A program made the translations under genes and the position numbers. A stretch of 20,820 bases of DNA from a virus. The stretch lies in IMG/VR virus record IMGVR_UViG_3300021956_000093, positions 1 through 20,820 of that record; one strand, given 5' to 3'. This document shows, one piece after another, positions 1 to 18,944 of this stretch; position 1 is the first letter of the stretch; the number at the start of each line of letters is the position of its first letter. The notes beneath the pieces were generated by a model that was not told where the DNA came from, made no database searches, and was given only the letters and a program-made list of their open reading frames with translations.

Positions 1-777
1 GAGGTCACTTCTGACTCAATGATTTACCAAGATGAACAGCAAGAAAAAGCAGATAGAACCGCTTTCTTAGCTGCAATCGGTCAATTTACACAAATGGCGT
101 TGCCAGCAGCGCAACAAGCACCTGAATTAGTGCCAATGTTGATGGAAATGCTGAAGTTTGGGGTAACAGCCTTTAAAGCTGGTAAGCAATTAGAAGGAAT
201 TATTGACGAAACTGCTGATAAATTCCGTGAACAAGCTAAAAATGCTGAAGGTCAGCCAAAACCACCTCCATTAGAGATTCAGAAGGTGCAAATGCAACAA
301 CAGGCTGAAATGCAGAAACTACAAATGCAATCACAGCTTGAACAACAGAAGATGCAAGCACAAATGGAGTTGGAAAAGGCTAAACAAGAGTACCAGGCGC
401 AAGAAAACCAGCTTAAATTCCAGTTGGAAGAACAGCGTAATCAGATGGACATGGAAATGCAGATGAAGGTAGCGCAGATGAAGTCTATGACTGAACGCAA
501 TACCCAAGTCTTATTGGCCCATATTAACAATGGCGCAAAAATTGAAGTAGCACGGATTGGTGCAGATGAGTCTGATGGCGCACAAGCCTATATGACTGAG
601 GAAAGCCTGGCACACGCTATGGAACACCCAATGCAACCTATTGCTAACGCTATTGGTCAAGGAAATGAACAAATGGCACAAGCCATTACTGCTTTAGTTG
701 ATACAATTAATCAGCAACATAATAGGCCTAAGACTGTAGTTAGGGGTCAAGACGGCAAAATTATTGGGGTTCAATAA
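1..777 (+). CDS. Portal protein, C-terminal part (cut by left edge)
   Basis: The frame is open to the first base of the window (six codons precede the first ATG at 19), so this is the end of a longer gene. The first ~70 residues read as a helical segment with DRTAFLAAIGQF, ALPAAQQAPELVPMLMEML and FGVTAFKAGKQLEG. This resembles the C-terminal region of portal proteins from P22-like and other short-tailed phages. It is followed by a long Gln/Met/Lys-rich coiled coil (about residues 85-160 from the first ATG), comparable with a portal barrel or C-terminal helical extension. The portal forms the dodecameric DNA entry ring at one capsid vertex. The stop overlaps the next start (TAATG). The catalytic and wing domains that would prove the assignment lie outside the window, and a different helical virion protein cannot be fully excluded. 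Confidence 0.68.
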   Translation, partial: EVTSDSMIYQDEQQEKADRTAFLAAIGQFTQMALPAAQQAPELVPMLMEMLKFGVTAFKAGKQLEGIIDETADKFREQAKNAEGQPKPPPLEIQKVQMQQQAEMQKLQMQSQLEQQKMQAQMELEKAKQEYQAQENQLKFQLEEQRNQMDMEMQMKVAQMKSMTERNTQVLLAHINNGAKIEVARIGADESDGAQAYMTEESLAHAMEHPMQPIANAIGQGNEQMAQAITALVDTINQQHNRPKTVVRGQDGKIIGVQ

Positions 778-3700
778 TGGCAATTAATGTCAAGCATTTA
801 AAGGTATCAACCATACCTGACGGTGATGACACATCGTTAGTACGCCCAAGTGATTGGAACGCTGACCATGTGCTAGATGGCACAGTACCAGTAGCTAACG
901 GTGGTACAGGCGCAGCTACATTAACTGGTTATGTAAAAGGTAATGGCACAAGCACAATGACTGCTTCTGCCACTATTCCTAGCACCGATGTAACTGGGCT
1001 TGGCACAATGTCTACCCAAAACAGTAATAACATTTCTGTTACTGGTGGTTCAATGTCTGGCGTTACGATTAGTGACTACATTCCTACCACGCAAAAGGCT
1101 GCTGCATTAGGTGTAGCTACACTTGATTCATCCACTAAAGTACCCATTAGTCAAATACCTGACGCTGTTATTGGTGCGTTAAACTATCAAGGAACTTGGG
1201 ATGCAGCTACTAATACTCCTACTCTTACTTCCTCTGTTGGTACTAAGGGTTATTATTATGTGGTTAGTGTGGCTGGTAGCACTAACCTTAACGGGACTAC
1301 TGATTGGTTGGTTGGCGATTGGGCGGTTTATAACGGAACGGCTTGGCAAAAGGTAGACAATACCGACTCAGTAACCTCTGTAAACGGACTTACTGGCGCA
1401 GTTGTATTAACCACTACCAATGTAACTGAAGGCACAAATCTTTACTACACAGACGCTAGGTCTAGGGCTGCATTAAGCGCTGGTACAGGAATTAGCTACA
1501 ACAGTACAACTGGTGTCATTACTAGCACAGTAGTGCCAGGCACAGGTGATGTAGTTGGCCCAGCAAGCGCCACAGATAACGCAATTGCACGCTTTGACAC
1601 CACTACAGGTAAGTTAATTCAGAACTCTGTAGTTGTTGTTAATGATGCTGGCACTATGTCTGGCGTTGAGTCTTTGGTATTCGATGGTTCAATACCTGCT
1701 GCTACTCCTGTAGGAACAATGTGGTATGACAATGCCACAGAAACCCTAAATTTCCAGCAAAACAATATTACCCAACAAATTGGTGAAGAATTGTTTGTTT
1801 ATGGTAAGGCTAGCGCAGCCATTACAGATAGCCCATTAAAAATTATTTACCATACTGGCACAGTAGGCTCTAGTGGGGTTGTTACTTTTGCCCCTACAGT
1901 AGCTGGCATTACAGACGAAAACGCCATTATTGGTGTTGCAACAGAAAACATTGCTTTAAACGGTTTTGGTCGTGTTACTGCTTTTGGTGTAGTGCATGGC
2001 ATTACTACTAACGGTACTGCATACGGTGAAACATGGGCAGACGATGATGTTATTTGGTACAACCCTGTAACTGGTAACCCTACTAATGTTAAGCCTAGCG
2101 CACCTAATATTAAGTTTCAAATTGGTCTTGTAATTAATGCAGGGTCAGGCGGTTCAGGTAGTTTTCAAGTTCTTTTACAGCCAGGCACACAATTAGGCGG
2201 CACAGACTCAAATGTGCAATTAACTAGCCCTACTGCCGCACAATTACTGACTTATAGCACTACTAACGGATATTGGAAAAACACTAGCCTAGCCGCAGGA
2301 ACAGGAATTAGCGTAGGCGCTGCTTCAAGTGGTGTTTTAACTGTAACTAATAGCGCACCTGACCAAACTGTAGCTATTTCTAGCGGTACAGGCATTAGTG
2401 TTACTGGTACTTACCCTAACTTTACAGTTACCAATACTAGCCCTTCAAGCGGTGGTACGGTTACTAGCGTTACAGCTACAAGCCCAGTTACTTCTACTGG
2501 TGGTACGACTCCAGTTATTGCTATGCCAGCCGCAACAAGTAGCGTAAACGGCTATTTGACAAGCACAGATTGGTCTACCTTCAATGGTAAAGGTAGTGGG
2601 TCTGTAACTAGCGTAGGCGGTACAGGCACAGTTAATGGCATTACATTAACAGGCACAGTTACTTCAAGCGGTAATTTAACCCTTGGTGGTACGCTTTCTA
2701 ATGTCAGTTTAGCTACCCAAGTAACAGGCAATTTACCTGTAACTAACCTCAATAGTGGTACAGGCGCAACATCTAGCACTTATTGGCGTGGTGATGGCAC
2801 ATGGGCAAGCGTAAGCGTTTCCCCTGCTGGTTCAAACACCCAAGTTCAATACAATAATAGTGGTTCATTGGCTGGTTCTTCTGGGTTTGTTTACAACACA
2901 AGCACACAAAGATTAGATGTTAGTGGAACTACTGGTGGGTTTATTCCACCAACAGGAACAACTGCCCAAAGAAATGGCACTCCTGTAGCTGGTGAAATTC
3001 GTTATAACACTACAACTTCATCATTAGAAGCGTGGAATGGTTATTCTTGGACAAATTTAACTACTCAATCTTATTCTATTAATTATTTAATAGTTGCTGG
3101 TGGCGCAGGCGGTGGATATTATGGAGGTGGTGGCGGTGCAGGGGGATTGTTAACTGGTTCTTATACAGTTTCAGGTGGCACTTCTTATACAATCACCATT
3201 GGCGCTGGTGGCGTTGGTGGAACAAGTGGAAGTGTTAGTGGTGGTGCTGGTACTAACTCCTCTATTACTGGATTAACTGCTGCCGTAGGTGGTGGTTATG
3301 GTGCAGGAACAACCTACCCAACACCTAATAATGGTGGAAATGGTGGCTCTGGTGGTGGCGCTTCTACTGGCTCAACAACAGGCGTTTCAGGTTCAGGAGG
3401 AACAGGAACATCTGGCCAAGGTTATGCTGGTGGCGCTGCTTACAATATTGGTGGTGGTGCATATTCTAGCTTTGGTGGCGGTGGTGGCGCTTCAGCAATA
3501 GGTGGGTCTGGAACACTTACACTTTCTGGTAATGGTGGCGCTGGAACTGCATCTTCAATTAGTGGTTCATCTGTAACTTATGCTGGCGGAGGTGGAGGTG
3601 GTGCAGATAGTCGTGGTACTACTGCTGGTGCTGGTGGCGCAGGTGGCGGTGGTACTGGAAGCCAAACCACAGGAAGTAACGGAACGGTAAATACTGGCGG

Positions 3701-3875
3701 TGGTGCTGGTGGTGGTGGTTATAACGGAAGCGTCTTAGGCAATGGTGGCGCTGGAGGTTCTGGAATTATTATTATTTCCTATTCTGGTTCTCAGCGTGGT
3801 TCAGGCGGAACAGTTACCTCATCTGGGGGTAACACCATTCACACATTTACAACTAGTGGTACATATACAGGTTAA
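777..3875 (+). CDS. Large glycine-rich tail fibre / receptor-binding protein
   Basis: This 1032-residue protein begins at the ATG overlapping the portal stop, with a GGGG-containing ribosome site just upstream. It has the modular make-up of environmental phage fibres. Residues 38-57 carry the VANGGTG...GYVKGNGTS module. Residues 135-235 hold LNYQGTWDA, GDWAVYNGTAWQ, SVNGLTGAV and NLYYTDARSR. Residues 295-475 form a folded segment, and 555-605 contain GTVTSVTA and NGYLTSTDW. From ~769 to the end comes a low-complexity Gly-rich domain that opens with YLIVAGG and closes with NTIHTFTTSGTYTG. Such glycine-rich tips are typical of fibre ends and adhesins. The gene probably mediates host recognition. 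Its location between portal and scaffold is unusual. No catalytic motif was seen. The antisense open frames under it are shadows. Confidence 0.82.
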   Translation: MAINVKHLKVSTIPDGDDTSLVRPSDWNADHVLDGTVPVANGGTGAATLTGYVKGNGTSTMTASATIPSTDVTGLGTMSTQNSNNISVTGGSMSGVTISDYIPTTQKAAALGVATLDSSTKVPISQIPDAVIGALNYQGTWDAATNTPTLTSSVGTKGYYYVVSVAGSTNLNGTTDWLVGDWAVYNGTAWQKVDNTDSVTSVNGLTGAVVLTTTNVTEGTNLYYTDARSRAALSAGTGISYNSTTGVITSTVVPGTGDVVGPASATDNAIARFDTTTGKLIQNSVVVVNDAGTMSGVESLVFDGSIPAATPVGTMWYDNATETLNFQQNNITQQIGEELFVYGKASAAITDSPLKIIYHTGTVGSSGVVTFAPTVAGITDENAIIGVATENIALNGFGRVTAFGVVHGITTNGTAYGETWADDDVIWYNPVTGNPTNVKPSAPNIKFQIGLVINAGSGGSGSFQVLLQPGTQLGGTDSNVQLTSPTAAQLLTYSTTNGYWKNTSLAAGTGISVGAASSGVLTVTNSAPDQTVAISSGTGISVTGTYPNFTVTNTSPSSGGTVTSVTATSPVTSTGGTTPVIAMPAATSSVNGYLTSTDWSTFNGKGSGSVTSVGGTGTVNGITLTGTVTSSGNLTLGGTLSNVSLATQVTGNLPVTNLNSGTGATSSTYWRGDGTWASVSVSPAGSNTQVQYNNSGSLAGSSGFVYNTSTQRLDVSGTTGGFIPPTGTTAQRNGTPVAGEIRYNTTTSSLEAWNGYSWTNLTTQSYSINYLIVAGGAGGGYYGGGGGAGGLLTGSYTVSGGTSYTITIGAGGVGGTSGSVSGGAGTNSSITGLTAAVGGGYGAGTTYPTPNNGGNGGSGGGASTGSTTGVSGSGGTGTSGQGYAGGAAYNIGGGAYSSFGGGGGASAIGGSGTLTLSGNGGAGTASSISGSSVTYAGGGGGGADSRGTTAGAGGAGGGGTGSQTTGSNGTVNTGGGAGGGGYNGSVLGNGGAGGSGIIIISYSGSQRGSGGTVTSSGGNTIHTFTTSGTYTG

Positions 3876-3888
3876 AAAGGAGTATTAA

Positions 3889-4248
3889 ATGACATATTTT
3901 GCAAAATGTTTACAAACCCCACAAGCATCAAAATTTGAAGTGGTAGATGTAATTCGTGCAGACCAAGAGTTTGTAGATAACCTACCTGGCTACTGGGTAC
4001 AAACAGATTACAACACATACGGAAATGTGCATTACGCACCATCCCCACCTGCTGAACCACATACACCTGACGGTGGCACACCATTGCGTGCTAACTATGC
4101 TGGTATTGGTTACACCCTAGATAACTCTGTAGTTATTGATGGTGTTGTAGGTGTATTTTATGCACCACAACCAACATCGCCAGGTACTTGGTCATTAAAT
4201 ACCACAACATATTTGTGGGAAAATTCAGACCCAACTCCAATTCCTTAA
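3889..4248 (+). CDS. Small fibre-associated protein
   Basis: This 119-residue protein has a good AAGGAG site 13 bases after the fibre stop and a stop that overlaps the next start. It carries a recognisable set of motifs: VVDVIRADQEFVDNLPG near the N-terminus, LRANYAGIGYTLD around residues 66-78, and a C-terminal WSLNTTTYLWE followed by Pro-rich residues. From memory, this pattern (NYAGIGYTYD, then WxLNEDxxxWE) occurs in small proteins near tail-fibre genes of cyanophages and other aquatic phages, whose function is not established. The position directly after the fibre suggests a fibre-attached or fibre-assembly protein, which is inference. It is soluble, with no signal peptide or membrane segment. 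Confidence 0.72.
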   Translation: MTYFAKCLQTPQASKFEVVDVIRADQEFVDNLPGYWVQTDYNTYGNVHYAPSPPAEPHTPDGGTPLRANYAGIGYTLDNSVVIDGVVGVFYAPQPTSPGTWSLNTTTYLWENSDPTPIP

Positions 4249-4721
4249 TGTTTCAAACTGCTTTCCAACCTAATGCGTTTCAAAATGACGCATTTCAGAT
4301 ATTTATTACACCGCCAATTCCTACGGGAACTGGTGGTGATGGTTGGACTCGTGAAGAATGGAAGTATTACCAAGATTTAGATAAGAAAAAGCGTAAAGCA
4401 GAAGCTAAACGCCTTGCTGCATTAAAAGCAGACAAAGAAAGTCGTAAACAAAGCATTGCTGACTTAATTGACCCACCAAAAGTAAGCAAACGCAAACAAA
4501 AAGAATTACAATCTAATCAAGCAGTTAGCGTTGATACACCGTCAAACCTAGCAAACATTGACCGATACATCGCTAATCTTGAAAAGCAACAACAAGACTT
4601 GCGAACCGCAGTAGCTATGAGAGAAGCAAAACTCCGTTTAGAACAGGAGATTGCAGTCTTAGAAGCCAAACGGTTAGCAGAATTAGACGATGAGGAAGCA
4701 TTATTAGCACTAATACTGTAA
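4248..4721 (+). CDS. Small Lys/Gln-rich coiled-coil protein, function unknown
   Basis: The reading frame is open further upstream, but the start chosen is the ATG at 4248 that overlaps the previous stop (TAATG), giving 157 residues. It opens with a repeated AFQ motif (FQTAFQPNAFQNDAFQIF), a run I recall at the start of many small phage proteins next to fibre and structural genes. After a Gly/Trp linker (TGTGGDGWTREEW) there is a long charged helical stretch rich in Lys, Arg, Glu and Gln, with heptad-like spacing between residues ~40 and 150, and a Leu-rich end (EEALLALIL). No domain of known function is recognised. It could be a small virion or fibre-associated protein. Its last ~20 bases overlap the probable start region of the downstream glycosyltransferase-like gene. 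Confidence 0.7.
   Translation: MFQTAFQPNAFQNDAFQIFITPPIPTGTGGDGWTREEWKYYQDLDKKKRKAEAKRLAALKADKESRKQSIADLIDPPKVSKRKQKELQSNQAVSVDTPSNLANIDRYIANLEKQQQDLRTAVAMREAKLRLEQEIAVLEAKRLAELDDEEALLALIL
4692..4705 (+). promoter_or_regulatory. Ribosome site and ATT codon proposed to start the glycosyltransferase-like gene
   Basis: GAGGAA at 4692-4697 is followed by ATT codons at 4700 and 4703 in the frame of the downstream gene. The frame has a TGA at 4691-4693 and no ATG, GTG or TTG before 4820. No Shine-Dalgarno-like sequence precedes the ATG at 4820. Initiation here would be translationally coupled to the upstream gene, which ends at 4721. Confidence 0.4.
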
Positions 4722-5611
4722 ACCCCCACCAGCAATACAAATTAGCTTACGAACACCTACACGCTGGTCGTTTAGACGCTGGATTTAGATTATTTGAATA
4801 CCGTTGGCATCCAGATATTATGGCTAATCAAGCACAGCCATATACTCAGCCATTGAAAATGCCAGTATGGAGAGGTGAAAGCCTATTAGGGAAAACCATT
4901 ACTGTAATGGCTGAACAAGGTTTTGGCGACATTATTCAATATGCTAGGTTTTTGCCATTTTTAAAGGTAATGGGCGCTAGTCGTGTTGTTTTATTACAAC
5001 ATGGTTCATTACATACATTATTTGGGCAAATGGATTGCGTTGATACCTTTAGCAATATGCCAGAAGAAGGTATTGCTACTGAATCTGATTACTGGATTGG
5101 CATTATTTCTCTGCCTTATTACATCTCTTTAGCGCCTTCTTACGCAAAAGCCCTATTTCCTCTATCAACTGACAAAATAATCGGTTCTGAGGGCTATTTA
5201 GACGCTGTGCCAAGCAATATTCCTAAGAAGATAGGTGTTAACTGGGCTACTTCTAAGGGATTGTTGCATTATGTCCGCACAATTCACCCAGAAAAGATGC
5301 TAGAAGTCATTGGCCCAGACGCTTATTCGTTTAATCCTGAAGAAGATAGGTTTTGGACACCATTACCTAATGATGGATGGAAGCAAGATTGGAATAAAAC
5401 TGCAAGCCACCTCAAAGCAATAAAGGGTTTGGTAACTGTAGATACGGGCATAGCCCATTTAGCTGGCGCATTGGGTGTAAAAACGGTTTGCATCATGCCT
5501 AGAAAAGATTTTAAGTGTTGGCGATGGAAGCATGGCACTTGGTATGACTCTGTAGTCACAGTTGAAGAAGATGAATTGCACAAAATACCTGAATTAATAA
5601 GGAGAATGTAA
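4703..5611 (+). CDS. Glycosyltransferase-like protein (OGT/GT9-type C-terminal fold), probable AUU start
   Basis: The first ATG in this frame is at 4820 (263 residues), but the frame upstream encodes residues that continue the family's usual sequence: LAYEHLHAGRLDAGFRLFEYRW, the end of a TPR-like helical pair that normally precedes the enzyme domain. I therefore extend it to ATT at 4703, six bases after a GAGGA ribosome site at 4692-4696, giving 302 residues. In this longer form the landmarks are the PLKMPVWRGESLLGKTI segment, AEQGFGDIIQYARFLP at 70-85, KIGVNWATS at 176-184, VDTGIAHLAGALGV at 246-259, and the W...WYDSVV segment near 274-285. These match the C-terminal domain of TPR-linked, heptosyltransferase/OGT-related proteins. 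The donor and acceptor are unknown; it may modify a virion or host surface glycan. The stop overlaps the next ATG. The fold is fairly sure, the activity and start less so. Confidence 0.7.
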   Translation: MSTNTVNPHQQYKLAYEHLHAGRLDAGFRLFEYRWHPDIMANQAQPYTQPLKMPVWRGESLLGKTITVMAEQGFGDIIQYARFLPFLKVMGASRVVLLQHGSLHTLFGQMDCVDTFSNMPEEGIATESDYWIGIISLPYYISLAPSYAKALFPLSTDKIIGSEGYLDAVPSNIPKKIGVNWATSKGLLHYVRTIHPEKMLEVIGPDAYSFNPEEDRFWTPLPNDGWKQDWNKTASHLKAIKGLVTVDTGIAHLAGALGVKTVCIMPRKDFKCWRWKHGTWYDSVVTVEEDELHKIPELIRRM

Positions 5612-7079: not shown

Positions 7080-7100
7080 AAAGGAAATATCATGGCATTT
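7080..7100 (+). repeat. Translation-start repeat, copy 1 (major capsid gene)
   Basis: This 21-base segment covers the ribosome site, spacer, ATG and first codons of the capsid gene. It is identical to 8112-8132 in front of the next gene. The core is AAAGGAAATATCATGGCAT, and both proteins therefore start with Met-Ala-Phe. Confidence 0.85.
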
Positions 7101-8066
7101 GCTAACTCAGCAATCACCGATATTATCGCAACGACTATTCAAAGCCGTAGCGGTGAATTGGCAGACAACTTAACAGAAAACAATGCAATTCTGCAACGCC
7201 TGAACAGCAAGGGTAATGTACGCCCATTCTCAGGTGGTAATGTGATTTTGGAAGAAATCATGTACAACGACCCAAATACTAATAACGCTAACTCTTATAG
7301 CGGTTACGAAGTATTGAACATTGCCCCAGATAGCCCAATCTCTGCTGCACAATACAAAATTGCACAGTACGCAGATTCAGTAACAATGTCTGGTTTAGAA
7401 ATGTTGCAAAACAGCAGCAAAGAAGCAATCATTGACCTGTTAGATGGTCGTATGCAAGTTTCTGAAGCACGCTTGTTAAACCGCATTTCTGGTGACTTGT
7501 ACCTTGACGGTACTGGTAACGGTGGTAAGAACTTGGATGGTCTAGGCGCTGCTGTTTCAGCAACTCCTACAACTGGCACATACGGTGGTATCAATGCTGC
7601 TAACTGGACTTTCTGGCGTAACCAAATCACTACTGGCGCTACTGCTAACACAATGTTGGCTTCTATGACTACTGCTGCTATCAAGCAAATTCGTGGCACA
7701 GATAAAGCTGACCTTATCGTAGCTGGTAACACAATGTACCAATATTATGTTGGCGCATTGCAAGCTATTCAGCGTATCGCTTCTGAAGAATCTGGCGCTG
7801 CTGGTTTTGCTTCATTGAAGTTCTACGGTGGTGGTACTTCTGCTGATGTGGTATTAGGTGGTGGTTATGGTTCACAAGAAACAGCAACATATATGTATTT
7901 CTTGAACACTAACTACATTTTCTTCCGCCCACATAAAGACCGCAACTTTGTACCTATCGGTGGCGAACGCCAGGCGATTAACCAAGATGCGATTGTGAAG
8001 CTGTATGGATTTGCTGGCAATCTTACAACTTCTAACCGCTTCCTACAAGGCTTGTTGACAACCTAA
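7092..8066 (+). CDS. Major capsid protein
   Basis: This 324-residue protein follows the scaffold, with an AAAGGA ribosome site. It is probably an HK97-fold coat protein that forms the icosahedral shell. Visible features are an N-terminal helix (MAFANSAITDIIATTIQSRS), AILQRLNSKGNVRPFSGGN with the EE motif and NSYSGYEVL typical of this phage coat family, a long central helix (EAIIDLLDGRMQVSEARLLNRISGDLYLDGTG), and the C-terminal YIFFRPHKDRNFVP. No N-terminal delta domain or prohead-protease site is evident, which fits use of a separate scaffold. By hand count 21 of 28 Asn codons are AAC, unlike the AAT-rich neighbours, consistent with very high expression. A GAAA-loop hairpin begins at its stop codon. 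Confidence 0.88.
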   Translation: MAFANSAITDIIATTIQSRSGELADNLTENNAILQRLNSKGNVRPFSGGNVILEEIMYNDPNTNNANSYSGYEVLNIAPDSPISAAQYKIAQYADSVTMSGLEMLQNSSKEAIIDLLDGRMQVSEARLLNRISGDLYLDGTGNGGKNLDGLGAAVSATPTTGTYGGINAANWTFWRNQITTGATANTMLASMTTAAIKQIRGTDKADLIVAGNTMYQYYVGALQAIQRIASEESGAAGFASLKFYGGGTSADVVLGGGYGSQETATYMYFLNTNYIFFRPHKDRNFVPIGGERQAINQDAIVKLYGFAGNLTTSNRFLQGLLTT

Positions 8067-8506: not shown

Positions 8507-9133
8507 ATGGCTATCGAGTCAGATGTAAGAAACGCAGATGCAAACTTAGCAGTCACATTCTATAAACGGTCAGTAAAGCAAGACATGGCTTCTGAAGAAG
8601 CTGGCAGACCGATTTTTAAAGAATTTGATTTTATAAGAATCATGGTTCCAGGCGACAATTTAAGTGAAATTGACACTTATGCCCAAGAGTCCCATAAACA
8701 GCGTTTTCCACGCCAATGGGCGCATTATCAAAACCAAGAAGGTTCAAATCAAAGTTTTGAAGGTACGCCTATTGAACAATGGCCTCAAGTAAGTCGCAGC
8801 CAAGCTGATGAATTAAGAGGAATTAAGTTTCCTACTGTTGAGTCAGTAGCTAACTGTTCAGACCAACAATTACAGCGTATTGGCATGATTGCAGGGATGT
8901 CACCCCATTCTTTTCGTGAAAAAGCCAAGGCTTTCCTCAATTTAGCTAACGATTCAGCCGAAGTAGCACAAAGAGAAGCAGAATTGCAAGCATTAAAAGA
9001 AGAAAATGCTAAAATTAAGGCTGATGCTGATGCCAAACTTAGCAAAATGCAAGAACAGCTTGATGCTTTAATGGCTATGGTTGCTGAAAAAAAACCAAAA
9101 CCTCGTAAAACAAAAGAAGCTGAAGCAGTTTAA
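8507..9133 (+). CDS. Conserved phage coiled-coil protein between capsid and adaptor genes, function unknown
   Basis: This 208-residue protein has an AGGAGA ribosome site. The N-terminal part contains RPIFKEFDFIRIMVPGD and RFPRQWAHYQ, then GTPIEQWPQVSRSQADELRG and a short helical module (FPTVESVANCSDQQLQRIGM) that resembles a helix-hairpin-helix-like segment. Residues ~150-193 form a coiled coil (EVAQREAELQALKEENAKIK), and the tail is basic (EKKPKPRKTKEAE). I recall this arrangement in uncharacterised phage proteins encoded just after the coat gene. It may be a head-completion or minor structural protein; no catalytic residues are evident. Its stop codon overlaps the convergent stop of the HNH gene by four bases. 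Confidence 0.72.
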   Translation: MAIESDVRNADANLAVTFYKRSVKQDMASEEAGRPIFKEFDFIRIMVPGDNLSEIDTYAQESHKQRFPRQWAHYQNQEGSNQSFEGTPIEQWPQVSRSQADELRGIKFPTVESVANCSDQQLQRIGMIAGMSPHSFREKAKAFLNLANDSAEVAQREAELQALKEENAKIKADADAKLSKMQEQLDALMAMVAEKKPKPRKTKEAEAV

Positions 9134-9627
9134 TTATGTCGTGCAAACTTGCCGTGATATTTTTCCCTAGCTTCTTGGGCAACTAACTCGGCAAGTTCTA
9201 AATCTTCAAAAACGCCTACATATTTGCGTTTTCCTTCCACCCCTACATCAACTTTCCATTTATTTAATTCTTTAAACCAATAAACACCTTTTACTCCAGA
9301 CTTATTGTCTTTTCTTATTTTTGAGTTTTGTTGGTTTTTGTTTGTTGCATTGCGCAAATTTTCAATTCTATTGTCATTTTTTATGCCATTTATATGGTCA
9401 ATTTCTTTTGGAATATAACCATGAAACATCATAAAAATTAAACGATGTATAAGATAAAACTTACCTTTAATTGTTGTGGAAAAATAGCCTCTATTAGTAA
9501 AAGAACCAACCTTTTTGCCAATTATTGAGTTTGGGGAAGTTTTTTGTTTGTAGTAAAGGTGACCGTCTTTATATTCAAAGATTTGAAGTAAATAGTCTTT
9601 TGTTAGTGTAAAATCAATATCAGCCAT
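9130..9627 (-). CDS. HNH homing endonuclease with AP2 DNA-binding domain
   Basis: This 165-residue protein is encoded against all surrounding virion genes. The N-terminal half is an HNH_3-type nuclease: GKFYLIHRLIFMMFHG gives the first His (61), EIDHINGIKNDNRIENLR gives Asp77-His78 and the downstream Asn, and a Lys/Asn-rich segment follows. Residues ~110-155 (SGVKGVYWFKELNKWKVDV, then VGVFEDLELAELVAQEA) form an AP2 DNA-binding domain, the usual pairing in free-standing phage homing endonucleases. Such enzymes cut an allele lacking the insertion so that it is copied in by repair. A GAGGT ribosome site lies seven bases before the ATG. The gene looks more AT-rich than its neighbours, consistent with separate origin. 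All motif residues appear intact, so it is probably active. Confidence 0.92.
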   Translation of the reverse strand: MADIDFTLTKDYLLQIFEYKDGHLYYKQKTSPNSIIGKKVGSFTNRGYFSTTIKGKFYLIHRLIFMMFHGYIPKEIDHINGIKNDNRIENLRNATNKNQQNSKIRKDNKSGVKGVYWFKELNKWKVDVGVEGKRKYVGVFEDLELAELVAQEAREKYHGKFARHN

Positions 9628-10651: not shown

Positions 10652-13111
10652 ATGGCGCAACCTAAAGGTCGTACCGCAGTCACAGCCTCGGTTTCTAGCC
10701 CTATTGGGGGATGGAACGCTAGAGATTCTATTGCAGAAATGCCACCGTTAGATGCTGTGGTTTTAGACAATATGTTTCCTACTCCTACTGATGTCCAGTT
10801 GCGTCTTGGCTATACCAAGTCTTGCACAGGCATTAATGACGGTTTAGGCAATCCATTACCAGTTAATTCTTTAATGAATTATGCTGGCACAAATACACAA
10901 GACCTATTTGCTGCTGCTGGCACAAAGATTTGGGATGTTTCAGGAACTACAGCTACACAAGTTCACACCATTTCCAATGACAAAATGCAGCACATTAACA
11001 TTACTACTGCTGGTGGTCATTTTTTAGTAGCTTGTAATGGTCAAGATGCTACAACATTTTATAACGGTACAAATTGGATTAATAACGCTTCTACTGACAC
11101 GCCACAAGTAATGCAAACCATTACAAGGGTTGGAACTTTAGCAACAGTTACTACCGCTTCTGCACATGGTTTAGTTACAGGCAATCAAATTGTAGTTTCA
11201 GGTGTTACACCAGCAGCTTATAACGGTACTTTCATTATTACGGTATTAAATGCTACTCAGTTTACTTACACAATGGCAAGTACACCATCGTCTAATGCTA
11301 CGGCTAACGGTACTGCTTATGCTATTACTTCTATTACCAATACAGGCACAGGCGCTTTAGTTACTACTGCTACTGACCATAATCTATATACAGGTAATAT
11401 TATTGTGGTTACTGGCGCTACTCCAAGCGCTTATAACGGCACTTATGCCATTACACGCCAAAGCGCTACAACCTTTACTTATGCTTTAACAAGCAACCCA
11501 GGTGGTAATGCCACAGTAGTAGGCACATATAGCGTTGCATCAAACACTATTACTTATTTAGCCCATGATGGGACTACAGCCAATGTAACTACAGCTACAG
11601 CGCATGGCTTATTAACAGGTAACCAAATTACGGTTACTGGTTGCACTCCATCTGATTACAACGGTACATTTATTATTACAAGGTTAAATGACACTCAATT
11701 TAGCTATGTAATGGCTACAACCCCAGCTACAGATGCTACCGTTATTGGCACTTATGTAGTAGTGGCACAAACCATTAGCAGTAATGTGCAAACAGGCATT
11801 GTGGCTAAAGCTACCACCCCTGTAAACCATGATTTAGTCACAGGTGACCAAGTTGTTATTTCAGGATGCACGCCTTCTGCGTATAACGGCACATACAATG
11901 TCATCGTTATTAGTGCTACGCAATTTAGTTACATTATGGCTTCAGCGCCCATTACAGGCGCAACTACAGTAGGCACTTATGCTACTTATCAAGGCACATA
12001 TAGCATTAATTACGCTATTACAGGCGTTAATTCCAACAAGTTTATCAATGTAAACCTGTTCAAAAATCGCTTATATTTCACCGAAGAAAACAGTATGCGA
12101 GTCTGGTATTTGCCAGTTAACTCTATTGCTGGTGAAGCGCAACCTCTTGAATTTGGTGGAATTGCACGCAATGGTGGCTACATTCAAGCTATGGCTACTT
12201 GGACTATTGACGCTGGTCAAGGCGCTGACGATTACGCAGTCTTTGTCACCAATATGGGCGAGGTAATTGTCTATAACGGTACAGACCCTAATGATGCAGC
12301 AACTTGGGCATTAAAAGGCGTGTGGCAATTAGGTTATGTATTTGCTAGACGCTGCTTTTATAAGTTTGCTGGCGACATTCTATTGCTTACCCAAGACGGT
12401 TTAGTGCCATTGGCTTCTGCATTGCAGTCAAGCCGATTAGACCCTAGGGTTAACCTTACGGACAAGATTTACTACGCTATTTCTCAAGCTGCTACGCTGT
12501 ATGGCATTAATTTTGGTTGGCAAATTAACTACTATGCCAGCGAAAATATGCTGATTATCAATGTGCCAATTAATTCAGGCACACAACAATTTGTAATGAA
12601 TACCATTTCTAAAGCATGGGCAAGTTTTAGCAATATTAGTGCCCAATGTTGGGAACTATCTAATGACCAAATGTATTTTGGTAGCACAGGTTACATAGGC
12701 CATTTCTGGAACGCTTATTCTGATGACGGTAGCAACATTAATGCTGATATTCAACAAGCCTACAGCTATTTTGACGCTAGGGGTCAGTTAAAACGCTTTA
12801 CTATGATTCGCCCTATATTCCAGACAGATAATGGAGTGCCTGGCGTATTAGCTGGTATTAATGTGGACTTTGCTACACAAAATGACCTTGGAACGGTGTC
12901 ATTTAATGCCCAAAACGCTGCTATTGGTTCTTGGGATAACGCTATTTGGGATGAGTCCCAATGGGGTGGCACATTAAGCATTACTAAGTCATGGCAAGGT
13001 GTTACAGGATTAGGATATTCAGGTGGTGTTGCTATGAAGATAGCTTCCCAAGGTATTGATGTGCATTGGGCATCTACAGATTATGTAATGGAACGAGGTG
13101 GCGTTCTTTGA
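10652..13111 (+). CDS. Tail hub/nozzle-like structural protein with four internal repeats
   Basis: This 819-residue protein has a GGAAG ribosome site inside the previous gene's end. The N-terminus (SSPIGGWNARDSIAEMPPLDAVVLDNMFPTPTDVQLR cut in pieces: GGWNARD, MPPLDA, LDNMFPT) and the beta-rich C-terminal half (RNGGYIQAMATW, FVTNMGEVIVYNGTDP, DGLVPLASALQSSR, MNTISKAWASF) fit the large tail-hub or nozzle proteins of short-tailed phages that follow the adaptor gene. Residues ~157-443 are an insertion of four tandem ~70-75 residue beta modules, each with HGL or HNL, TGNQ/TGDQ-type turn, TPSAYNGT and a TTFTY/TQFSY strand. The start of the GNAT gene overlaps its stop. Function as a tail-channel component is inferred from position and pattern. 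Confidence 0.75.
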   Translation: MAQPKGRTAVTASVSSPIGGWNARDSIAEMPPLDAVVLDNMFPTPTDVQLRLGYTKSCTGINDGLGNPLPVNSLMNYAGTNTQDLFAAAGTKIWDVSGTTATQVHTISNDKMQHINITTAGGHFLVACNGQDATTFYNGTNWINNASTDTPQVMQTITRVGTLATVTTASAHGLVTGNQIVVSGVTPAAYNGTFIITVLNATQFTYTMASTPSSNATANGTAYAITSITNTGTGALVTTATDHNLYTGNIIVVTGATPSAYNGTYAITRQSATTFTYALTSNPGGNATVVGTYSVASNTITYLAHDGTTANVTTATAHGLLTGNQITVTGCTPSDYNGTFIITRLNDTQFSYVMATTPATDATVIGTYVVVAQTISSNVQTGIVAKATTPVNHDLVTGDQVVISGCTPSAYNGTYNVIVISATQFSYIMASAPITGATTVGTYATYQGTYSINYAITGVNSNKFINVNLFKNRLYFTEENSMRVWYLPVNSIAGEAQPLEFGGIARNGGYIQAMATWTIDAGQGADDYAVFVTNMGEVIVYNGTDPNDAATWALKGVWQLGYVFARRCFYKFAGDILLLTQDGLVPLASALQSSRLDPRVNLTDKIYYAISQAATLYGINFGWQINYYASENMLIINVPINSGTQQFVMNTISKAWASFSNISAQCWELSNDQMYFGSTGYIGHFWNAYSDDGSNINADIQQAYSYFDARGQLKRFTMIRPIFQTDNGVPGVLAGINVDFATQNDLGTVSFNAQNAAIGSWDNAIWDESQWGGTLSITKSWQGVTGLGYSGGVAMKIASQGIDVHWASTDYVMERGGVL
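11120..11980 (+). repeat. Four tandem ~70-75-codon repeats inside the tail hub gene
   Basis: The repeats share HGL(V/L)TGNQIxVxGxTPxxYNGT...TQFxY. Their YNGT anchors are at protein residues 190, 261, 336 and 411, giving periods of 71, 75 and 75. The repeats are diverged at DNA level but clear in protein. They look like Ig-like or other beta-sandwich modules displayed on a virion surface. Confidence 0.85.
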
Positions 13112-13539
13112 GGCAAGTTGTTACTGCTGACCAAGACTATATGCGTGCTTGGTTGGGTAACAAATTGGGCGAGAAACTGCCAGAGAATACCACCTGTATT
13201 GGGCAAGAATTAGATGGTAATTTAGTAGCAGTAGTAGGGTATTGTGGCTTTCGCACAAAGTCGTGTGTTTGCCACATTGCCTCGGTAGGTGAAAATTGGA
13301 TGTCCAAAGACTTCTTATGGGCTATCTTTGATTATCCCTTTAATAAACTAGGAGTTAGCGTTATACTTATCACGGTTTCGTCAAATAATGACGATTCATT
13401 AAAGTTTAGCCGACACCTTGGTTTTGTAGATAAAGCGTATATCGAAGATGCCCATGAAGATGGGGATTTGGTTATATTAGCAATGAGGCGTGAACAATGT
13501 CGTTATTTAGACATTAAAACGACTCTACAAGGAGTTTGA
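13108..13539 (+). CDS. GNAT-family acetyltransferase-like protein, TTG start
   Basis: The frame is open to an ATG at 13066, but TTG at 13108 is the better start: it overlaps the previous stop (TTGA), has GAGG at 13095-13098, and gives MRQVVTADQDYMRAW, the usual opening of this phage GNAT family. The product has 143 residues. It shows the beta core DGNLVAVVGYCGF (36-48), CHIASVGENWMSKDFLWAIFDYPFN (55-79), the strand VILITVSSNND (85-95) followed by the SLKFSRHLGF helix (97-106), and the family end DGDLVILAMRREQCRYL. GNAT proteins transfer an acetyl group from acetyl-CoA to an amine. The substrate is unknown, and conservation among virion genes suggests a role in late infection or virion maturation. 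The acetyl-CoA loop is not classical. Confidence 0.78.
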   Translation: MRQVVTADQDYMRAWLGNKLGEKLPENTTCIGQELDGNLVAVVGYCGFRTKSCVCHIASVGENWMSKDFLWAIFDYPFNKLGVSVILITVSSNNDDSLKFSRHLGFVDKAYIEDAHEDGDLVILAMRREQCRYLDIKTTLQGV

Positions 13540-17756: not shown

Positions 17757-18944
17757 ATGCCACGCAACGGTTCGGGTACATACTCTTTAGTAGTTGGAAA
17801 TCCAGTGGTCACTGGAACCACAATTAGTTCAACATGGGCTAATAACACACTTACAGATATTGCTAACGCCCTTACAGGGTCTTTGTCTGCTGACGGTCAA
17901 ACAACCGCTTCTGGCAACCTTAATATGGGTACAAACCGTATTATTAATGTAAGTGACCCACAAAATGCACAAGACGCAGCTACAAAATACTATGTAGACC
18001 AATTAATTGGCGCTTTAGGCACAATGGCTTACCAAGATGCTGATGCTGTTGACATTACTGGTGGCGCTATTGTTAATGTGGATTTAGATTTACATTCTAA
18101 AACCAATGAAATTTATCTTCCTGTTGGCCCTACTTCTTTGCGTACTGCTTCTCCAATACCAGGTTTAATGCGTTTTAATACTGATGCTGGTGGCTTTTAT
18201 GAAGGCTACATTAATAGCACATGGCAAAAGTTTGTTACCGTAAACGAAGGTTCTTACACAATTACTTATGTGGTTGTTGGAGGCGGTGGCGGTAGTGGTG
18301 GTGGACAAGGCGGTGGTGGCGCAGGGGGCGCAGGTAAATACACAGCAAGTACATTAACCGCTATTCCAACCAATGTCTTTACTATGTTAATTGGTGGAGG
18401 TGGTTCTGGTGGTTCTAATGGTACTGCTGGTTCTACAAGTTCAATTACTGGTGTAGCATCTTCTACTGGAGGAATAGGTGGAGGATTATCACCAGACCAA
18501 AATGCTGGTGGTAATGGTGGCGCATCAGGAAATGGTTTTGCTGGCGCAGGTGGGTCGTATGCACCAAATCAATATTCTGGCGGTGGCGGTGGTGCTGCTG
18601 CTGCTGCAAGTGGCAATAGTGGCGGTATTGGTGTAAATAGTGTTATTAGAGGCACATCAGAATACTTTGGCGGTGGTGGTGGCGGTACACCAGGGGGTAG
18701 TGGTGGATTAGGTGGTGGTGGTACTGGTGCTGGCGCTGGTGCTGGAACTGCTGGAGGCGTAAATACTGGCGGTGGTGGTGGTGGTGGAAATAACAATGGT
18801 GTAAATAATGGTGGTTCAGGTGTAATTATTTTGTCTATGCCTACTGCTAATTACACAGGTACACACACAGGAAGCCCAACAGTTATTACATCTGGTAGCA
18901 ATACCATACTTACTTACACTTCTTCTGGCACTTACACAGCATAA
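17757..18944 (+). CDS. Second glycine-rich tail fibre / receptor-binding protein
   Basis: This 395-residue protein has an AAGGAA site. The N-terminus (MPRNGSGTYSLVVGNPVVTG, then TTISSTWANNTLTDIANALT) is a well-known anchoring region of phage fibres. It is followed by GNLNMGTNRIINVSDPQNAQ and DAATKYYVD, a fibre collar-like module, and PGLMRFNTDAGGFYEGYINS around 135-154. From ~167 onward comes a Gly-rich tip beginning TYVVVGGGGG and ending NTILTYTSSGTYTA. That tip is built like the C-terminus of the first fibre, but with a different length and sequence. It probably recognises the host surface or supports the first fibre. It is the last structural gene before lysis. Confidence 0.82.
   Translation: MPRNGSGTYSLVVGNPVVTGTTISSTWANNTLTDIANALTGSLSADGQTTASGNLNMGTNRIINVSDPQNAQDAATKYYVDQLIGALGTMAYQDADAVDITGGAIVNVDLDLHSKTNEIYLPVGPTSLRTASPIPGLMRFNTDAGGFYEGYINSTWQKFVTVNEGSYTITYVVVGGGGGSGGGQGGGGAGGAGKYTASTLTAIPTNVFTMLIGGGGSGGSNGTAGSTSSITGVASSTGGIGGGLSPDQNAGGNGGASGNGFAGAGGSYAPNQYSGGGGGAAAAASGNSGGIGVNSVIRGTSEYFGGGGGGTPGGSGGLGGGGTGAGAGAGTAGGVNTGGGGGGGNNNGVNNGGSGVIILSMPTANYTGTHTGSPTVITSGSNTILTYTSSGTYTA

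Follow-up and report, generated by a model that had tools for sequence, protein, structure and literature searches.

Escherichia coli is credited with only two genes that begin at AUU (PMC9410913), and a reconstruction over 36 prokaryotic genome groups counted a single switch to AUU in 61,358 AUG starts (PMC5622118). In E. coli infC, which encodes IF3, the AUU start is discriminated against by IF3, and this limits expression (PMC9410913). The AUU start of E. coli pcnB is described, as cited in PMC13009471 and PMC9410913, as limiting expression of an enzyme (Binns and Masters 2002). In Staphylococcus aureus cvfC1, an AUU start and its Shine-Dalgarno sequence are conserved genus-wide, and expression in RPMI, a poor medium, is about 10% of that from AUG (PMC13009471). 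Mutation established the AUU start of Yersinia pestis rcsD-Hpt, function being lost with another codon and raised with AUG (PMC10191623). IF3 represses non-standard starts, and a Shine-Dalgarno sequence near an upstream stop enhances re-initiation (PMC2268962). In one in vitro test, full-length product from AUU read by a CAU anticodon fell to 31% at 1.5 uM IF3 (PMC10158994). Our search, which covered an open-access library, found no example of an AUU start in a phage.

Here we describe a glycosyltransferase gene in a virus record of 20,820 bases (the whole stretch analyzed, hereafter the window), located among portal, tail-like, and capsid genes, for which comparison of relatives strongly supports an AUU start. 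Like infC, this gene would begin with AUU, but infC is a host gene with an autoregulatory loop, whereas there is no sign of the phage product acting on IF3, and the phage start is instead buried within an overlap with the upstream gene. With pcnB, as that gene is portrayed by the citing papers, it shares the AUU start of an enzyme gene; pcnB is a bacterial chromosomal gene, whereas the phage start lies in an out-of-phase overlap. A conserved AUU with a conserved Shine-Dalgarno sequence is common to the phage gene and cvfC1, but cvfC1 is the first gene of its operon and has an extended Shine-Dalgarno sequence, in contrast to matches of 4-6 nt inside the upstream gene in the phage. The AUU of rcsD-Hpt resembles the one proposed here from comparison, but is an internal start after a frameshift within one gene, and not a conserved gene junction. 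In termination-reinitiation overlaps, usually of the ATGA type, the start is also near the upstream stop and accompanied by a Shine-Dalgarno sequence, although the usual overlap is 1-4 nt, compared with an AUU start and 13-19 nt across the phage relatives.

Results

The gene upstream of the glycosyltransferase gene encodes a charged protein of 157 amino acids ending in ...LDDEEALLALIL and, according to the open reading frame listing, extends from ATG 4248 to the stop TAA at 4719-4721 on the plus strand. It has no confident Pfam or PHROG match and no match in the phage collection. The glycosyltransferase gene, on the same strand but in a different frame, would occupy 4703-5611 (302 amino acids from ATT 4703; stop TAA 5609-5611). 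Direct reading places the last stop ahead of ATG 4820, in the same frame, at TGA 4691-4693, and codons 4694-4819, which read GSIISTNTVNPHQQYKLAYEHLHAGRLDAGFRLFEYRWHPDI, include no ATG, GTG, or TTG, as an earlier note on this DNA had stated and as recurs in relatives. There are two in-frame ATT codons in the window, at 4700 and 4703. A Shine-Dalgarno-like GAGGAA (4692-4697, plus strand) contains the GAGGA at 4692-4696 that had been proposed as the ribosome site, and its GAGG ends 7 nt upstream of ATT 4703 (4703-4705, plus strand). The overlap from this ATT through the end of the upstream stop is 19 nt in -1 phase.

Six IMG/VR scans returned 403 loci with upstream sequence, corresponding to 226 distinct contexts. 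The loci were fetched via the glycosyltransferase protein, and the start region was therefore not selected for. The arrangement recurred at the same site in related phages: in 222 of the 226 contexts, an in-frame ATT and no ATG, GTG, or TTG precedes the conserved N terminus, and the frame is closed by TGA in 224. All 222 contexts of the overlapping arrangement have ATT at the site equivalent to 4703, down to about 57% protein identity. Neither ATT 4700 nor ATG 4820 is conserved among relatives; ATT 4700 was rejected as a start on these grounds, and the earlier preference for 4703 holds. A sequence error at the CCCCC run (4723-4727) was also rejected, because identical frames recur in 222 distinct contexts; the run is absent from most relatives and lies beyond the upstream stop.

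Gene callers would by the standard rule place the start at the first ATG, GTG, or TTG, here the ATG at 4820-4822 (plus strand), giving a shorter protein. The UniProt entry A0A6J7WM20, a phage protein of 250 amino acids with 88% identity, agrees with such a start, given that 296-46=250 fits relatives whose first start-type codon is codon 47. The position of this codon varies widely among relatives, however, and it falls at the 4820 position in only 36 of the 226 and at codon 44 or beyond in 146 (counting N of NPH as 1); in 148 contexts there is no ATG, GTG, or TTG through the 4820 position. Homologues carry the lead-in rather than lacking it. In the stretch before ATG 4820, relatives differ by 219, 73, and 879 changes at codon positions 1, 2, and 3, respectively, and this dominance of third-base changes indicates that the stretch is translated. 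The N-terminal lead-in (4706-4819, plus strand) comprises two predicted helices, at residues 8-20 and 24-35 from the ATT, within a block of pLDDT 92-95 in an AlphaFold2 model. A start at 4820 was rejected as the least probable of the alternatives considered here, and the ATG encodes an internal Met, residue 40. By inference, A0A6J7WM20 (BFVD/UniProt) is a truncated annotation from an ATG at codon 47.

The AlphaFold2 model from the ATT, based on 82 aligned sequences, had a pLDDT of 92 and a pTM of 0.90, and replaced a model from 13 sequences with a pLDDT of 65. The nearest solved structures were all GT9 proteins (3tov, 1psw, TibC, and WaaC; best E 7e-05, probability 1.0), although TM-scores were only around 0.5; no matches came from searching the PDB with the sequence. 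Pfam Glyco_transf_9 (PF01075) was matched with an E value of 3.8e-05 and 23.6 bits against a cut-off of 22, below which one relative, L046, falls. The product is likely a GT9 (heptosyltransferase)-like protein, that is, a predicted sugar-transferring enzyme. No cultivated phage in the phage collection has a close relative of it.

The overlap allows the conservation of the AUU to be examined through the codons of the upstream gene. Codons were numbered after the conserved Asp-Asp-Glu motif of this gene, which served as the anchor in place of the ATT to avoid circularity, and changes were counted along a glycosyltransferase tree built with FastTree; a separate column table anchored on the ATT is descriptive only. 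The ATT spans the boundary between codons 3 and 4. Codon 3 underwent 61 first-base changes, interchanging Leu, Ile, and Val, but only about 2 wobble changes, and codon 4 underwent 4, 0, and 1 changes at positions 1, 2, and 3, compared with 14-69 wobble changes in most other codons of the upstream gene that were compared. At codon 4, 215 of 222 sequences have TTA. In L418 this codon has changed from Leu to Phe (TTT), with the ATT still kept. The pattern is broken in 9 sequences, all of which form an ATT one codon later. When each 85%-identity cluster was represented by a single sequence (34 clusters), the probability of a wobble A throughout by chance, given background codon usage, was about 10^-12; the single ATC in this set belongs to sequences with the shifted ATT. 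Codon bias of the upstream gene was rejected as an explanation for the frozen codons, since TTA accounts for 38% of Leu, ATA for 34% of Ile, and GTA for 39% of Val elsewhere in these genes. The Leu at codon 4 may in part be conserved for the upstream protein itself.

The last residues of the upstream gene (4248-4721 and homologues) show a conserved DDE-x-x-[LIV]-L motif. Its conservation is in part attributable to its encoding the ribosome site and start of the next gene, so it cannot be read as a sign of protein function alone.

The Glu codon that forms GAGG is GAG in 195 of 222 relatives (88%), compared with 26% GAG elsewhere in the same genes, and in 24 of the 27 GAA cases the next codon is GAG. 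A match of GAGG, AGGA, or longer, ending 4-9 nt before the ATT, is present in 216 of 222. The six relatives with a weak site have no GAGG, AGGA, GGAG, or AAGG within 18 nt.

Because the upstream gene is in the other frame, a -1 shift is required to join both frames. If ribosomes underwent a programmed -1 frameshift toward the end of the upstream gene, a fusion protein would result, and the -1 phase of the overlap in all 222 contiguous relatives, with both frames conserved, is what such a mechanism would need. In E. coli, frameshifting requires a Z_ZZN or an X_XXZ_ZZN motif (PMC4066793). However, extending the observation in the earlier note that no slippery heptamer is seen where the two frames could join, we observed an X_XXZ_ZZN heptamer in 0 of 222 relatives. 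A Z_ZZN tetramer occurs in 8, in most of them as the weak U_UUA or U_UUG; because the wobble base of codon 3 is frozen as A, U_UUA is excluded at codon 4. Structure prediction gave no conserved RNA fold, and the window's own fold is unremarkable (z -1.5). Moreover, in two relatives in which the genes have become separated, L069 and L249, the glycosyltransferase gene has its own ATG. We consider a frameshift very unlikely.

In L249, the genes are pulled apart and the upstream gene still ends in ...DDEESILALFL, but its codons are ATT CTG, compared with ATA TTA in contiguous relatives with the same residues, so that the glycosyltransferase frame no longer has the ATT. In L249 the glycosyltransferase gene starts from a downstream ATG (MSSNLNPH) with GGAG just ahead, and this ATG takes the same place as the AUU of relatives (ISTNT-L-NPH, ITTTLNPH). 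In L069, an HNH endonuclease gene is inserted between the two genes, the upstream gene ends in ...ALMLLL with codons TTG ATG and has lost the ATT, and the glycosyltransferase has an ATG before NPH with AAGG. The ATG starts of both look derived, since the tree places L069 nested among AUU-type relatives and L249 nearest the AUU-type L048.

L069 and a further lineage bear on whether translation might instead begin at the codon directly before NPH, here a GTA overlapping the upstream stop, through re-initiation. L069 starts there, and L074 and L203 have an ATG there, directly before the conserved N terminus, that overlaps a TGA stop. Elsewhere, however, the codon varies among GTA, TTA, CTA, and ATA, none of them an established start, and the frozen ATT and its Shine-Dalgarno sequence would be left unexplained, so that we regard this possibility as extremely unlikely. 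L074 and L203 keep the ATT despite this ATG; in their lineage it may serve no purpose as a start, or may persist for the sake of the upstream protein. It is possible that these two represent an intermediate or ancestral state; the position of L074 is not settled by the tree.

Several other features of the genomes were observed. The HNH endonuclease gene of L069 (4516-5004), whose insertion point is precisely the junction of the upstream and glycosyltransferase genes, resembles one at a different site in the window (9130-9627, minus strand; HNH_3 and a weak AP2 match). The major capsid protein of the window (7092-8066) shares about 50% identity with its counterparts in Myxococcus phage Mx8, Bradyrhizobium phage ppBjS10J-1, and Stenotrophomonas phage BUCT555, which have no close relative of the glycosyltransferase; naming a host from this protein was rejected, as this identity to the nearest phages is too distant. 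For an open reading frame listed from TTG 13066, TTG 13108 is the more likely start (13108-13539); this codon overlaps the preceding TGA (TTGA) and has GAGGTGG upstream. The frame has no Pfam match. The genes at 777-3875 and 17757-18944 have similar glycine-rich tails, with Gly_rich_2 in 777-3875, perhaps representing tail fiber or adhesin ends.

Discussion

The earlier note had proposed that the glycosyltransferase gene starts at AUU, and the comparison of relatives strongly supports this proposal: the lead-in is shared, the ATT at 4703 is common to the 222 overlapping contexts, none of which offers an ATG, GTG, or TTG start, and the wobble base of the overlapping codon is frozen. Our explanation, to which we assign a probability of roughly 0.9, is that the 30S subunit is placed by GAGG(A) ahead of AUU 4703 and that initiator fMet-tRNA is accepted at this codon. 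The GAGG(A) at 4692-4696, in the terminal part of the upstream gene, would position the 30S subunit, which may arrive freely or belong to a ribosome that re-initiates after the upstream stop at 4719-4721, the first base of which is 16 nt downstream. As AUU is a weak start, output of the enzyme would probably be low relative to its neighbors and sensitive to IF3. What the comparison shows is the position and identity of the start codon; the initiation route, expression level, IF3 sensitivity, and reason for retention are inferred. IF3 sensitivity and the unusual translational control suggested in the earlier note would follow by analogy with known AUU-started bacterial genes.

The overlap itself indicates why an AUU can exist here. 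In a -1-phase overlap, an NTG start requires the upstream frame to read TGN (Cys, Trp, or stop) there; AUU, by contrast, is compatible with the conserved upstream Leu codon TTA. This does not explain the reason for keeping the AUU. In 23 of 222 relatives, a single point change (TAA to TGA) would turn the upstream stop into the site of an ATG start, an option taken by the L074/L203 lineage only. TGA is the stop of 27 of 219 glycosyltransferase genes and of 92 of 1,050 long open reading frames (9-12%), compared with 0 of 222 upstream genes. That an ATG is reachable by one change, yet hardly used, is a hint, and only a hint, that the weak start is favored. We consider it a tentative idea, and on balance a doubtful one, that this phage group relies on an IF3-sensitive AUU to hold back translation of a sugar-transferring enzyme, with selection for low or timed output beyond the constraint of the overlap.

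In conclusion, we report here an overlapping gene junction at which, in a large group of uncultivated phages, a glycosyltransferase gene appears to start with AUU. Gene callers limited to ATG, GTG, and TTG truncate the front ends of such proteins, seemingly also that of A0A6J7WM20. Thanks to the overlap, conservation of the AUU can be measured here against the silent sites of the upstream gene, and these phages offer a setting in which to ask what keeps a weak start in place.
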